64,000 nucleotides of DNA from positions 7,813,501 through 7,877,500 of the forward strand of contig NZ_CP069338.1 in assembly GCF_016859125.1 (NCBI RefSeq), in the 5' to 3' direction. The notes beneath the pieces were generated by a model. It was not told the origin of the DNA and searched no databases. It saw only the letters and a program-made list of their open reading frames with translations. This document shows positions 12,345 through 16,150 of the stretch, piece after piece. The stretch is from Archangium violaceum (GTDB lineage: Bacteria; Myxococcota; Myxococcia; Myxococcales; Myxococcaceae). The position numbers and the translations under genes were made by a program. Within the stretch, counting starts at the first letter, position 1. Each line of letters opens with the position of its first letter.

Positions 12345-12707
12345 CTCTGCGCGTCCTGGACGGGGAGTTTCCTTCTCAGTACCCGGCCTCTCCGACACCC
12401 TTCCACTGTGCGGAGGCGTTTACCGATTTGCAATAAACGTTTTCGGATACGACCTTCCCTGTCCGCAAAGAAACTGACAGGAGCCCCGGTGGTCGTCCCG
12501 GCCTGTCTTGAAATAGCTAAGAGGCTGATTTTACAGGCGCTTGTAGGCGATTTCGCGACCTGTACCAGAGTACAACAGGGGGCTGTCAAAATTTTACCCG
12601 AATTATTTACCGACGCGAGAACGGGGAGCGGGGATGGGGGGGCGGGCATGGGGGCCGGGACGCGGCAGTCCGCCGACCCGCTCAGGGAGTGGAAGAGGAG
12701 GTGCGTG
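12345..12707. promoter_or_regulatory. Divergent intergenic control region
   Basis: About 360 bases between two divergent genes, visibly more AT-rich than its surroundings. A TTTGCAA at 12427-12433 and a GCAAAGAAAC at 12465-12474 form half-sites in opposite orientation, resembling sites bound by RamB-like regulators; assigning them to the adjacent regulator is inference. A separate palindrome TGTAC-N4-GTACA lies at 12561-12574, flanked by CCTGT/ACAGG. An AT-rich run near 12585-12612 contains TGTCAA, which reads as a TTGACA box on the minus strand. No gene is supported. Confidence 0.5.
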
Positions 12708-14237
12708 ATGTCTTCGTCCTGGCCGGCGCTGTCCCTCTCGGCATGGGTCCTCCTGCTGGGGGCGCTGTGGGGCTGCCAGCCCGCTCGGACGCACGTGCTC
12801 CACCCGGCAGGGGAAACCCCGGCGCTGCGCTACCGCGTCACCTACGTCCGCGAGCCCGGGGCCGCGTTGGACGTGGAGCTCACCCGGGTCCGTGAGGATG
12901 CGCCGCGGGACTTCCTCTTCACCCAACCCGGCGGAGTCGACCGGGTGAGCGTCCTCGGCCAGGAGGGCCCGGGCCACGAGCGGAGCGTCTCCTCGGAAGG
13001 CCGGGTCCTCGTCCCGCCGGACACGCGCCTGCTGCGCTACCGCTACCCACTGGACGCGCGAGCGCGAGGGACACGTTCCGACTTCTTCACCGGCATGGGC
13101 GAGGGCGATGCCTGGCATGTCGCGGGCCGGGCCTGGTTGCTGCGTCCGCGCAGGGTGACGCCGTCGCTGCGCGCGGAGCTGGTGGTGGAGGGCGTGGACG
13201 CGCTGCCTCCGTGGACACCGGACGCGAGCGGTGTCTACAGGCTGGAGGGTGGAGATCTGGTGGACTCGGGCTTCCATGGCTTCGGCGGACGGCGGTGCAC
13301 GGTGCGGCTTCCGGGAGCGGTGGTGGAGGTGGCGGTGCTCGGCCGCATGTCGCGCATGGACGACGCGGCCCTCTGCGCGTGGATCCACCAGGCCGCGCGC
13401 GAGGTGCTCACGGTGCGGCGCTCCTTCCCCTACCCGCGCATCACCGTGCGTCTCGTCCCGATGCCGGGGCGTGGGCAGCCCGCGCCCTTCGGCATGGTGC
13501 TGTGGAGCTCGCCACCGAGCATCTCCCTGCTGGTGGGCCAGGACGCGGCGCCCGCGGCGTTCGCGAGCGACTGGGTGGCGGTGCACGAGCTCCTCCACCT
13601 GGCACACCCCACCTTCGTGCCGCGCATCGCCTGGTTGTCCGAGGGCCTGGCCACCTACTACACGGAGCTGGCTCGGGCGCGCTCGGGCAGGCAGACGCCG
13701 GAGCGGGCCTGGACGGAGCTGCTCGCCGGCTTCGCGCGAGGGCGCGCCGCCGTGGGCTCGCGGACGATGGAGGACGTCATCACCCGCGGCGCTTCCTACC
13801 AGGGCACGTACTGGACGGGGGCGCTCTTCGCCCTGCGCCTGGACGTGGAGCTGCGCCGTGTCACTGGCAACACGCGGAGCCTCGACACGGTGCTCGAGCG
13901 GCTCGCCGGCTCCGGCTCCACTGCAACTTTCGACACCTTCGGGGCGGCGGTGGATGCCGTCGCGGGCCAGCCGCTCTTCCAGGTGCTACTGGATCGTCAC
14001 CTGTCCCGGCCCGCTTTTGCCGGGCTGGAGCCTCTGTTAGAAGCGCTCGGTGTGGCGCCCGGACCAGACGGAGTCGAGCTCGAGAGCGCACGAGACAGCC
14101 CCGTGCGTGAGGCCCTGACGGCTCCGGGTCTCGAGGGGGCTGTAACCGCGAAATCCGAAGTGCGTATGTCAGACCGCGATCCCATCGTCTCCCGCGACGG
14201 GGCTCCTCGCCACGTGCAGTCCTCCCTCACGCAGTGA
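12708..14237 (+). CDS. Putative lipoprotein metalloprotease (peptidase MA-like)
   Basis: The ATG at 12708 follows a GAGGAGG ribosome site; the frame runs on upstream to 10731 only as a shadow of the regulator. 509 residues. The signal peptide ends LWGC (Cys23), so it is an envelope lipoprotein. The N-terminal half is beta-rich. The zinc site is HELLH (H293, E294, H297) followed by WLSEGLATYY, giving a third ligand at E312, the arrangement of peptidase_MA-like gluzincins. The last 30 or so residues are polar and of unclear relevance. It ends 11 bases before the RiPP-like precursor gene, so it could be co-transcribed and act on it, but proximity is the only evidence. Confidence 0.8.
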   Translation: MSSSWPALSLSAWVLLLGALWGCQPARTHVLHPAGETPALRYRVTYVREPGAALDVELTRVREDAPRDFLFTQPGGVDRVSVLGQEGPGHERSVSSEGRVLVPPDTRLLRYRYPLDARARGTRSDFFTGMGEGDAWHVAGRAWLLRPRRVTPSLRAELVVEGVDALPPWTPDASGVYRLEGGDLVDSGFHGFGGRRCTVRLPGAVVEVAVLGRMSRMDDAALCAWIHQAAREVLTVRRSFPYPRITVRLVPMPGRGQPAPFGMVLWSSPPSISLLVGQDAAPAAFASDWVAVHELLHLAHPTFVPRIAWLSEGLATYYTELARARSGRQTPERAWTELLAGFARGRAAVGSRTMEDVITRGASYQGTYWTGALFALRLDVELRRVTGNTRSLDTVLERLAGSGSTATFDTFGAAVDAVAGQPLFQVLLDRHLSRPAFAGLEPLLEALGVAPGPDGVELESARDSPVREALTAPGLEGAVTAKSEVRMSDRDPIVSRDGAPRHVQSSLTQ

Positions 14238-14248
14238 AAGGAAACACC

Positions 14249-14506
14249 ATGAACATCAAGACCATGGCCGCCATCGTCGGCACCCTCTCCCTCGGCGCTC
14301 TGGCCACCGGCTGTGCGACCGCGAAGCCCGCGACCGCCGCCACCGAGGAGAAGGGCAGTGAGGCCTCCTGCAAGGGCGACGCGGCTGCCACCCAGGAGAA
14401 GGGCGGCGAGGCCCAGTGCGGCGGCGACAAGGCGTCCTCCACCTCCGAGAAGGGGAGCGAGCACGCGTGCGGCAAGGACGGTTGTGGCGCCGCCAAGCCG
14501 CAGTAA
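14249..14506 (+). CDS. Candidate RiPP precursor, Cys-repeat lipoprotein (bufferin/HvfA-like)
   Basis: 85-residue precursor candidate with an AAAGGA ribosome site; the ATG at 14249 is preferred over 14234 because it puts the signal peptide at the N-terminus. Residues 1-21 form a signal peptide ending LATGC (Cys22, possible lipidation). The mature part contains three copies of the octapeptide EKG(S/G)E(A/H)xC at 34-41, 50-57 and 67-74, plus a last Cys79, in an Ala/Thr/Ser/Gly background. This layout resembles the EGKCG-type substrates of MNIO enzymes, but the motif differs. The next gene encodes an MNIO enzyme. Known relatives carry oxidised Cys (thiooxazole or similar) that binds copper; that chemistry is inferred here. 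It is not recognisable as a DUF2282 protein. Confidence 0.82.
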   Translation: MNIKTMAAIVGTLSLGALATGCATAKPATAATEEKGSEASCKGDAAATQEKGGEAQCGGDKASSTSEKGSEHACGKDGCGAAKPQ

Positions 14507-14514
14507 TGGATAGC

Positions 14515-14536
14515 CCCCGGGTCATCGGGGGTTCTC
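14515..14536 (+). promoter_or_regulatory. Stem-loop between precursor and MNIO enzyme
   Basis: An eight-base stem, AGCCCCCG pairing with CGGGGGTT (one G-U pair) around a six-base loop, begins eight bases after the precursor stop. It is followed by TCTCTTCC rather than a U-run. A partial terminator or 3'-stabilising hairpin here would make precursor mRNA more abundant than enzyme mRNA, a common arrangement in RiPP operons. That role is inferred. Confidence 0.6.
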
Positions 14537-14591
14537 TTCCGGGCGGTGGGGAGTCTCTTCCCTCCGCCCGTGTCTTTTCCGAGGTGCCAAC

Positions 14592-15437
14592 GTGCCGGTG
14601 AGCTACGCGCGGAGACATGGATTGAAGCCGCTCGGGGCGGGCGTCGGGTTGCGGCGCGAGTTCTACGCGCAGCTCCCGGAGACCTCCCGTGCGCTGGATT
14701 GGGTGGAGATCATCCCCGAGAACTTCCTCACGCTCGGAGGCCGACCCCAGCGCGTGCTGGATGCGTGCACCGAGCGCTGGCCGGTGTTGCCCCACGGGGT
14801 GGCGCTGAACATTGGCGGACCGGAGCCGCTGGACGAGGACTACCTCTCGCGGTTGAAGGCGCTGGTGGAGCGGGTGGACGCGCCCTTCTTCTCGGATCAC
14901 CTCTGCTACACGCGGCTGGGCGGGGCGTACCTCTATGATCTGCTGCCGCTGCCCTTCTCGGAGGAGGCGGTGGAGCACGTGGTGTCGCGGGTGCGCGAGG
15001 TGAAGGAGCGGGTGGGCCGGCCCTTCCTGCTGGAGAACCCGAGCTACTACGCGCGCATGCCGGGGGGCACCCTGGACGAGGCGACCTTCCTGAGGCACGT
15101 GGTGGAGCAGGCGGACTGCGGCCTGCTGCTGGACGTGAACAACGTCTACGTGAACGCGCTCAACCACGGGTATGATCCGCGGGCCTTCGTGGACGCGCTG
15201 CCGCTGGAGCGGGTGGTGCAGATCCACCTGGCGGGGCACGAGCGCCTGCCAGAAGTCATCCTCGACACGCACGGGGCGGCGGTCTGCGACGACGTGTGGT
15301 CGCTGTACCGCTACGTGCTGGAGCGCACGGGGCCGGTGTCGACGCTCATCGAGTGGGACCAGGACATCCCCTCGCTGGACGCCGTGTTGGACGAGGCGGA
15401 CCGGGCCCGTGCGGTGCTGGCGGAGGTGACGCGATGA
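14592..15437 (+). CDS. MNIO (DUF692) multinuclear iron oxidase, BufB/HvfB-like
   Basis: TIM-barrel enzyme of 281 residues with a GTG start at 14592. MNIO proteins use a mixed-valent iron cluster and oxygen to oxidise Cys side chains of peptide substrates (methanobactin, bufferin and related pathways). Conserved DUF692 blocks are visible in order: GLRREFY (19-25), PHGVALNIGG (67-76), SDHLCY (101-106), LLENPSYY (146-153), LLLDVNN (178-184), QIHLAGHE (210-217), DTHG (225-228) and IEWDQDIP (253-260). They supply the His, Glu, Asp and Asn ligands expected of the iron site. The gene is coupled to its partner by an ATGA overlap, and its likely substrate is the upstream Cys-repeat protein. Confidence 0.93.
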   Translation: MPVSYARRHGLKPLGAGVGLRREFYAQLPETSRALDWVEIIPENFLTLGGRPQRVLDACTERWPVLPHGVALNIGGPEPLDEDYLSRLKALVERVDAPFFSDHLCYTRLGGAYLYDLLPLPFSEEAVEHVVSRVREVKERVGRPFLLENPSYYARMPGGTLDEATFLRHVVEQADCGLLLDVNNVYVNALNHGYDPRAFVDALPLERVVQIHLAGHERLPEVILDTHGAAVCDDVWSLYRYVLERTGPVSTLIEWDQDIPSLDAVLDEADRARAVLAEVTR

Positions 15438-16150
15438 AACCGGGGCTGCGCGGCTTCTTCGATTCGATGACGGAGTTCTTCACCACGCCGGGCCCGGACG
15501 CGTTGGAGCGGTTGTACGCGGCGCACCCGGGCTGGGACGCGCCGCGCTCGCGCGTGGAGCTCTACGGCCGGATGGTGCGCCACCACGGCAGGGCCACGCT
15601 GGAGAAGCTCTACCCGCTGACGCGCGCGAGCGTGGACGAGGCGGGGTGGGTGGAGCTGGCGCGGGCCTACGAGGCGTCGAGGCCCTCGCGGCCCTTCGAG
15701 ATGAACCACCTGGGCGAGGGCTTCCCGGGCTTCCTCGCGGACGAGGCGGAGCGGCGTGGCCTGCCGGACTTCCTGCCCGCGCTGGCGCGCTTCGAGTGGG
15801 CGGACTTCGCGGTGTACACGTCGATGGAGCCGGTGCCGGAGAAGGTGGAGCGGCTGACGGTGAACCCGACGCTGGTGGCCCTGGAGCACCCCTTCCAACT
15901 CTGCGCGTACGTGCGGGCGAAGGGGCGGGGACGGCCGGAGCCGGGACAGGAGATGGCGCTGCTGTGGCGGCACCCGGAGCGACTGGTGACGATGTACCTG
16001 GCCGCGAGCGACCGCTCCCTGCTGGCGTTGAAGATGGCGGTGGAGGGGCTGACGCCGGCCCAGGTGGCGGCGGCGACGGGGGTGGCCGAGGCCGACATCC
16101 GCGCCGCCGTGGAGGCCTGCGTGTCGGACGGCCTCGTCCTGTCACCGTGA
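15434..16150 (+). CDS. DUF2063 family partner protein of MNIO enzyme (BufC/HvfC-like)
   Basis: 238 residues; the start overlaps the MNIO stop (ATGA at 15434). The N-terminal helical DUF2063 domain contains RVELYGRMVRHHGRATLEKLYPLT and a following helical pair. The C-terminal half has the beta strands and winged-helix-like end (LTPAQVAAATGVAEADIRAAV) seen in BufC/HvfC partners, where an RRE-type fold presents the precursor leader to the MNIO enzyme. This is a standard companion in bufferin-type loci. It is the last gene of the cluster before two strong hairpins. No transporter is encoded nearby, consistent with Sec-dependent export of the precursor. Confidence 0.9.
   Translation: MKPGLRGFFDSMTEFFTTPGPDALERLYAAHPGWDAPRSRVELYGRMVRHHGRATLEKLYPLTRASVDEAGWVELARAYEASRPSRPFEMNHLGEGFPGFLADEAERRGLPDFLPALARFEWADFAVYTSMEPVPEKVERLTVNPTLVALEHPFQLCAYVRAKGRGRPEPGQEMALLWRHPERLVTMYLAASDRSLLALKMAVEGLTPAQVAAATGVAEADIRAAVEACVSDGLVLSP

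Follow-up and report, generated by a model that had tools for sequence, protein, structure and literature searches.

A putative lipid-anchored captophorin operon in Archangium violaceum and its Myxococcaceae relatives, with an EGKCG-like core and an ECF16-like promoter

We analysed a three-gene operon in a 64,000-nucleotide stretch of the 12.68-Mb Archangium violaceum genome (positions 7,813,501–7,877,500; the whole stretch is called the window below). The operon encodes a short cysteine-containing precursor peptide (P0001), an MNIO (DUF692) enzyme (P0002) and a DUF2063 partner (P0003). In the reading we favor, with a probability of roughly 0.7, it makes a lipid-anchored captophorin, that is, a 5-thiooxazole (5TO) metallophore, which would bind copper or soft metals or consume oxidant. 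An initial annotation, made from the window alone, had described an 85-residue precursor with three EKG-x-E-x-x-C octapeptides and a further cysteine, Cys79, followed by an MNIO gene and an overlapping gene for its partner, and translation and profile scores confirmed this arrangement. Its assignment of the genes to an MNIO-type locus for a ribosomally synthesized and post-translationally modified peptide (RiPP) was borne out by the profile scores together with a conserved gene order.

The precursor has cysteines at residues 22, 41, 57, 74 and 79. When its mature part was shuffled 200,000 times, one EKG.E..C motif arose in 174 shuffles and two arose in none. We collected 70 distinct precursors from the fetched loci, requiring a lipobox, and based core statistics on 68 of them (263 core cysteines) after excluding two that do not start with MN. 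The commonest five-residue core segments were EGSCG (n = 44), EGKCG (n = 17), AGSCG (n = 16), AGSCS (n = 12) and EASCG (n = 12), with Glu at position −3 of 169 of the 263 cysteines and Gly at +1 of 181. Literal EGKCG is absent from P0001 and occurs in four copies in one orthologue (L074, genome G037) and in three copies each in L075, L112 and L115. Both EGSCG and EGKCG are also found in the precursor open reading frame (ORF) of the Neisseria gonorrhoeae MNIO locus, which we take to be the characterized gonophorin. Against the NCBIfam HvfA domain model (cut-off 19.5 bits), the G037 orthologue scored 19.7 and the gonococcal precursor 43.3; against the HvfA equivalog model (cut-off 95 bits), they scored 16.2 and 48.3. 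Nine of 22 family members touched the equivalog model (best E value 0.012) and six the domain model (best 5.2e-5).

These results do not support one proposal of the initial annotation, namely that the motif differs in type from EGKCG, because EGKCG is the second commonest 5-mer within the same orthologous family. We also dropped EKG-x-E-x-x-C as a motif class of its own, as EGSCG and EGKCG are the commonest 5-mers of the family cores and both occur in the gonococcal precursor, and the G037 orthologue narrowly passes the HvfA domain model. Judged by sequence, the octapeptide is a degenerate version of the EGKCG-type ExxC(G) core. Because it corresponds in register to ExxC(G) and because orthologues carry EGKCG, the precursor family appears to sit within the EGKCG/oxazolin kind or to grade into it, even though P0002 scores as BufB.

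The export signal of the precursor was judged by eye. Of 77 distinct phmmer matches at E ≤ 1e-6 (fetched loci plus six more genomes, with no lipobox filter), 75 have a lipobox-like GC, which upholds the earlier proposal of a lipoprotein-like signal peptide as a prediction; the two without GC belong to a different scaffold, whose signal peptide is plain. Across the 68 precursors, the ratio of non-synonymous to synonymous differences (pN/pS; pairwise sums, uncorrected for relatedness) was 0.23 in the leader versus 0.87 in the mature part, and it was 0.51 and 0.59 in two neighboring lipoprotein families from the same loci (the only two families that passed the filter). This pattern is consistent with a constrained signal peptide that also serves as the leader recognized by the partner. 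NedA, a lipoprotein peptide of the EGKCG kind, was shown to be triacylated and to lose 12 Da (PMC12636315), and ~16% of Buf2 bufferins have been predicted to be lipoproteins (PMC12452194), so this kind of anchoring has precedent. FonBC was reported to tolerate single Ala changes N-terminal to the core (PMC13097082).

P0002 scored 356 bits against Pfam PF05114 (cut-off 25) and passed the NCBIfam MNIO_BufB equivalog (NF050167; 329.7 bits, cut-off 310); its score against HvfB PRK05409 was below the cut-off (300 versus 360 bits). The best solved relative was 3BWW (E = 7e-62), reported to be a close relative of HvfB (72.4% identity; PMC13419390). In the alignment with 3BWW, an Arg-Arg pair (R21, R22) and a D-x-H motif (D225, H227) are retained, and the Phe that follows the catalytic-type Asp of 3BWW is Gln in P0002 (D256-Q257). 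For FonB, the Arg pair has been linked to the substrate Glu and the Phe to residues around the Cys (PMC13097082); the correspondence of the FonB numbering to 3BWW and P0002 is our inference. P0002 belongs to a separate enzyme clade (20 rows with support 99/97) and is 78–94% identical to the other rows. The tree has a midpoint root, long branches and one row 27% filled, so placing an evolutionary root for the enzyme was dropped. The enzymes listed for this clade carry EWDQ, except for those of one genome (L029/L056/L073) with EWDA. Covariation of the Phe/Gln site with the substrate Lys was considered and rejected, as enzymes with literal EGKCG substrates also keep Gln.

P0003 matched Pfam PF09836 (DUF2063) at 44.4 bits (cut-off 27.2). 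Its AlphaFold model reached a predicted local distance difference test score of 90.7 (25 sequences), and the nearest Protein Data Bank entry was 3DEE, a gonococcal partner (E = 3.1e-6), followed by TglHI chains. The fold suggests a PME-type 1 protein, and the match to 3DEE points to a C-terminal part resembling a RiPP recognition element (RRE). In NCBIfam, SbtM, a radical S-adenosylmethionine thio(seleno)oxazole maturase (N-terminal part), gave 66.6 bits versus 49.7 for HvfC, both below cut-off; a recognition domain common to P0003 and SbtM is possible.

Searching 96 Myxococcaceae genomes with P0001 returned matches in 65 at E ≤ 0.01, including a weak one in G047 (E = 0.008), where the contig fetched held no precursor match. 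Strong matches were found in 64 of the 96 genomes and are spread over 9 of 26 genera. When a 22-row precursor profile was run against 145 genomes from the order, 66 matched at E ≤ 0.001, including two weak matches (3.9e-4 and 7.9e-4); all were Myxococcaceae, and this profile found no family member outside Myxococcaceae among the 145. The named-collection loci (n = 30) came from Archangium, Myxococcus, Pyxidicoccus, Corallococcus, Citreicoccus, Hyalangium, other Myxococcaceae and one Comamonas-labelled record. That record (BNCN01000006.1, Comamonas sp. KCTC 72670) carries a precursor of the Myxococcaceae family and is probably a mislabelled myxobacterium.

The initial annotation had also suggested a precursor family in myxobacteria, and the genome search supports such a family, conserved beside MNIO genes: the order precursor, MNIO, DUF2063 partner was seen in 20 of the 20 main loci fetched. 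All 20 also share one neighboring gene family, which by eye encodes a helix-turn-helix protein, and therefore represent one syntenic locus. Sequence comparison thus indicates an orthologous Myxococcaceae precursor family. The A. violaceum genome also has a paralogous operon ~55 kb away, whose precursor contains seven cysteines. In other genera of Myxococcaceae, the MNIOs (L004–L018) are mostly preceded by a Buf2-like ORF with six or seven cysteines that lies outside the P0001 family; one such ORF was scanned and passed the BufA2 model.

The operon is preceded by a promoter-like site, GTAACC-N15-CGTA. Written as GTAAC-N16, it has the same −35 element as the consensus of group ECF16 of the extracytoplasmic function (ECF) sigma factors, GTAAC-N17-CGAA, with a spacer one nucleotide shorter and one base changed at −10 (CGTA versus CGAA); Msr genes recur in ECF16 regulons (PMC8315932). 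The pattern GTAACC-N15/16-CGTA has 4 exact sites in the whole genome, and the pattern read backwards has 16. An exact site lay ≤800 nt upstream of 47 of the 70 precursors, which are related rather than independent rows, versus 43 of 3,934 control windows from long fetched loci, and upstream of none of the 70 on the reverse strand. For genera lacking a near site, a search for further motifs in the upstream alignments was dropped when a gene end was found there, and this gene end led us to examine YceI. A YceI-like gene lies between site and precursor in 28 of the 70, with the site directly ahead of it in 26 and 729–773 nt before the precursor; a contig end cuts one of the remaining two. YceI identity was established by scanning one protein (73.3 versus 23.7 bits) and by similarity of the others to it. 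Of the 42 precursors without YceI, 21 have the site 72–200 nt upstream and 21 lack it.

The other three sites in the A. violaceum genome lie before msrP (yedY in older nomenclature), before the gene of a DsbD_N protein and inside a gene; here and across the genus, sites inside genes were assigned by our own codon-position rule. The MsrP protein behind its site scored 484 versus 207 bits (NCBIfam) and the DsbD_N protein 59.5 versus 25. Across six genomes of the genus (40 sites), the main precursor and the DsbD-like gene were preceded by a site in all six and msrP in three; sites also preceded two stand-alone precursors, an MsrA-type gene in two genomes and a cytochrome P460-type lipoprotein in two (identity from one of the two scanned), and these groups account for 21 of the 40. 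A PMSR domain was confirmed in one of the MsrA-type pair, which stays below the NCBIfam msrA cut-off. In a genome of another genus (G044), the two sites lie before MsrA (202.7 versus 108.1) and MsrP (479 versus 207). MsrP exceeded its cut-off in 71 of 92 family genomes; among the best 30 MsrP loci, a site with at most two mismatches lay directly upstream, in the same place, in all 30 (7 exact, 13 with one mismatch and 10 with two). The best 30 DsbD_N loci held 8 exact sites, 1 with one mismatch and 21 with two or more.

A candidate regulator emerged from the distribution of NrsF. The A. violaceum genome contains a single NrsF-type match, barely over the cut-off (28.6 versus 26.8), which adjoins an ECF sigma gene (pair at ~971.8–973.2 kb) and is unlinked to the precursor operon. 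Among 58 precursor genomes, 44 of the 49 with an NrsF match (counted at E ≤ 0.01, some below cut-off) had the site, versus 2 of the 9 without (Fisher P = 8e-5, uncorrected for kinship). The six remaining precursor genomes without NrsF, all close relatives, were predicted to be siteless, and none had the site, giving 2 of 15 overall. In G033, a closely similar sigma–NrsF pair (by eye) directly adjoins a further MNIO–partner operon. The comparisons make an ECF sigma factor paired with NrsF the likely regulator of the precursor operon. Similar arrangements have been described: Caulobacter SigF acts on GTAACC-N16-CGAA before two DUF2282/DUF692/DUF2063 operons and yedY (PMC3511200), and Sinorhizobium RpoE7 controls a DUF692/DUF2063 operon (PMC6180224).

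At seven loci (L089–L095) a precursor is present, but the fetched flanks (~2.5–9 kb) contain no MNIO homologue; L096 is cut by the contig end and is uninformative on MNIO presence. The promoter site was found at six of the seven, three of them with YceI, and not at L089. All seven genomes hold MNIOs elsewhere, so these stand-alone precursors are likely modified in trans.

Under our favored reading, an ECF16-like sigma factor, probably NrsF-paired, would transcribe the operon from the observed site under envelope oxidative or metal stress, and would also transcribe msrP, the DsbD-like gene and, in relatives, msrA; the sigma factor and the signal are predicted. Leader constraint, the fold and described families suggest that the DUF2063/RRE partner would hold the signal peptide as leader and offer the core to the MNIO. 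By analogy with characterized relatives, the MNIO would oxidize core Cys in ExxC(G) by four electrons (−4 Da each) to 5-thiooxazoles, most likely at Cys57, Cys74 and Cys79, with Cys41 less sure because Lys follows it. As the lipobox predicts, the modified precursor would exit by Sec, be diacylated at Cys22 and be cleaved to leave an unstructured tether, probably at the outer membrane. There, the anchored peptide may bind Cu(I) or soft metals or consume oxidant, shielding the envelope.

Several observations weigh against this reading. The lipobox −3 residue is Ala in 66 of the 68 precursors and Val in 2, and Leu is more usual than Ala at this position; in P0001 alone, cleavage at ATA/K is also conceivable. 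P0001 matched no precursor model in Pfam or NCBIfam (including HvfA), and as a candidate bufferin it matched neither PF10048 (DUF2282) nor BufA2, a model that a myxobacterial Buf2 control passed (72.8 versus cut-off 60); a PHROGs search gave no match. DoxX genes are common in such MNIO clusters, and the operon has neither a DoxX nor a copper gene, since the next downstream gene has the opposite orientation (neighbors without profile scan). Twenty-three of the 70 precursors have no exact site, including the paralogues L083–L088, to which the second copy of A. violaceum itself belongs; 19 of the 40 sites counted across the genus lie before other genes or inside genes, and 22 of the 30 DsbD loci lack an exact site. 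The sigma–NrsF pair has no promoter site ahead of it (best match four mismatches), for which reason autoregulation was rejected. The genes that share the promoter function in oxidant repair and are not copper pumps. Finally, Cys41 precedes a Lys, and FonBC left substrates with a charged residue after Cys unprocessed (PMC13097082).

Of the alternatives, the one that we regard as possible, if improbable, is that the modified lipopeptide is mainly a regenerable sink for hypochlorite or another oxidant, a counterpart of the Met-rich sacrificial peptide in ECF16 regulons. The promoter shared with msrP (at most two mismatches in 30 of 30 loci), msrA-type genes and the DsbD-like reductase favors such a role, as does the Met-rich peptide that is encoded with MsrQP under an ECF16 sigma factor and induced by HOCl (PMC8315932); however, characterized 5TO peptides generally bind Cu (PMC13097082), and Caulobacter SigF, whose regulon is analogous, responds to metals (PMC3511200). 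The regulatory evidence suggests oxidant stress as much as copper, with the promoter partners leaning towards oxidant and the chemistry of relatives towards copper. By analogy with those relatives a copper role is plausible, and copper buffering and an oxidant sink may coexist. A different Cys modification, such as an oxazolone-thioamide or an oxidation particular to EWDQ enzymes, is rather unlikely. The distinct, well-supported enzyme clade and the combination of Arg-Arg with Gln where 3BWW has Phe would be expected under it, but a Rhodanobacter Buf1-type MNIO also carries EWDQ, and all characterized MNIO–PME1 cases install 5TO, which gonophorin is reported to carry and to which oxazolin has been revised (PMC13097082).

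The stand-alone loci could instead mean that the product is an unmodified Cys-rich metal-binding lipoprotein and that the MNIO pair acts elsewhere, an explanation to which the MNIOs in those same seven genomes, the invariable gene order of the 20 main loci and the constrained leader leave very little room. Myxobacteria make many antimicrobial or signaling RiPPs, and a secreted product of that sort would match the fast-evolving core (pN/pS 0.87) and the protease-like upstream gene with its HEXXH-type motif; given the lipobox, the stress-type promoter and an operon without exporter or immunity gene of its own (neighbors without profile scan), we consider this the least probable explanation of all. 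Returning to the lipid-anchored captophorin, we tentatively extend it to a wider scheme that is itself improbable, in which an ECF16-like envelope regulon of Myxococcaceae has a lipid-anchored thiooxazole peptide in place of the Met-rich sacrificial peptide. At the outer membrane, the peptide would be expended on oxidant or copper(I), and the co-regulated MsrP, MsrA and DsbD-like reductase would keep it functional; one MNIO pair would also serve stand-alone precursors in trans.

Table 1. Features of the precursor operon, in window coordinates.
Feature	Position	Strand	Details
Precursor peptide P0001, 85 aa	14249..14506	+	Predicted signal peptide/leader residues 1–21, lipobox Cys22, core 23–85
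MNIO (DUF692) enzyme P0002, 281 aa, GTG start	14592..15437	+	Arg21-Arg22, D225/H227, D256-Q257
DUF2063 partner P0003, 238 aa	15434..16150	+	4-nt overlap with MNIO gene
Leader with lipobox LATGC, residues 1–22	14249..14314	+	Predicted lipidated Cys22 at 14312–14314
Repeat 1 EKGSEASC, residues 34–41	14348..14371	+	Cys41, then Lys
Repeat 2 EKGGEAQC, residues 50–57	14396..14419	+	Cys57, then Gly
Repeat 3 EKGSEHAC, residues 67–74	14447..14470	+	Cys74, then Gly
Cys79 in KDGCG	14483..14485	+	Cys79 and Cys74 columns invariant (22-row alignment)
Ribosome-binding-like stretch AAAGGAAA	14237..14244	+	AAAGGAA recurs 5' of the precursor start in aligned relatives
ECF16-like promoter GTAACC-N15-CGTA	14142..14166	+	−35-like 14142–14147, −10-like 14163–14166; 82 nt 5' of precursor ATG

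The gene upstream of the operon (window ~12700–14237, + strand) encodes a lipoprotein-like protein whose HEXXH-type motif reads VHELLHLAHP; its open frame spans the promoter site and stops 11 nt 5' of the precursor. Further MNIO loci were seen in related genomes. The MNIO operon that adjoins the sigma–NrsF pair in G033 (L097 7081–9379 and L304; C1 ~3.2470–3.2511 Mb), seen also in G031 (L098), encodes an MNIO 58% identical to P0002 and a non-lipoprotein precursor with a signal peptide ending in ASPALA and four to five KGSE(K/H)SCKGDA repeats. Small exported Cys peptides starting MMKTLK-G-LGL-LG (L133 1597–1836, L143 and L164; G033 C1 ~2.07–2.085 and 3.246–3.247 Mb) lie 68–70 nt 3' of a GTAACC-N15/16-CGTA site; of the four sites within 13 kb, two are followed by such a peptide, as are two of the three at 3.246–3.247 Mb. 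One peptide was scanned and had no Pfam or NCBIfam match. Elsewhere in G033, a genome with 8 MNIO matches in all, an HvfB-like MNIO with ERDFNFP adjoins an EGKC precursor that is fused to EF-hand-like repeats (L102; C1 ~5.8625 Mb). In A. violaceum, a third, distant MNIO-like match (C1:10522766–10523392; L003, L101) scored 99.6 bits and lies inside a 550-residue open frame.

This family adds to the thiooxazole peptides a lineage-wide precursor group that pairs a BufB-like enzyme with an EGSCG/EGKCG-like core, and it bears on shifts in MNIO specificity. One promoter ties this peptide class to a compact gene set in Myxococcota (msrP, msrA, DsbD-like and YceI), which bears on whether such peptides serve against copper, oxidant stress or both, and the stand-alone precursors that share this promoter provide natural substrates for modification in trans. 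The myxobacterial family, the enzyme signature, the msrP/msrA/dsbD-like/YceI promoter set and the co-regulated stand-alone precursors appear to be new with respect to the literature searched. The main text of PMC12452194 contains neither 'myxococc' nor 'EKG', and its Table S2, with hundreds of small precursor ORFs, may include family members.

Among known systems, the EGKCG captophorins and oxazolins (fontiphorin, oxazolin HvfA and gonophorin) share with the window operon the order precursor, MNIO, DUF2063 partner, the ExxCG core with EGSCG/EGKCG and the MNIO Arg-Arg pair. They differ in that their MNIOs have ERDF where P0002 has EWDQ (44–45% identity of P0002 to gonococcal and EF-hand-type MNIOs), that the HvfA models miss P0001 and that the A. 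violaceum operon lacks DoxX. Bufferins resemble it in the enzyme, as P0002 passes BufB and is 48–52% identical to the tested Buf2-type MNIOs of other Myxococcaceae genera, and in the SigF promoter of like sequence carried by Caulobacter bufferin operons (PMC3511200), whereas P0001 matches neither the Buf1 (DUF2282) nor the BufA2 model. DAG-RiPPs such as NedA combine a lipoprotein signal with an ExxCG core; for NedA, lipidation and modification were shown (PMC12636315), whereas in A. violaceum both are predicted. The ECF16 SigF–NrsF regulons (Caulobacter SigF, Sinorhizobium RpoE7 and Brucella BcrS) likewise have GTAAC-N16/17-CG(T/A)A before DUF692 operons, msr genes or both, and an ECF–NrsF pair; in A. 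violaceum, by comparison, the −10 element is CGTA rather than CGAA, the spacer is one shorter, the sigma gene is unlinked, DsbD-like and YceI genes are added and the precursor is a predicted lipoprotein. As in captophorins, the MNIO lies beside a DUF2063/RRE partner, with a Cys-rich precursor bearing an export signal directly upstream, and by this likeness the operon is best filed as that of a putative lipoprotein captophorin.

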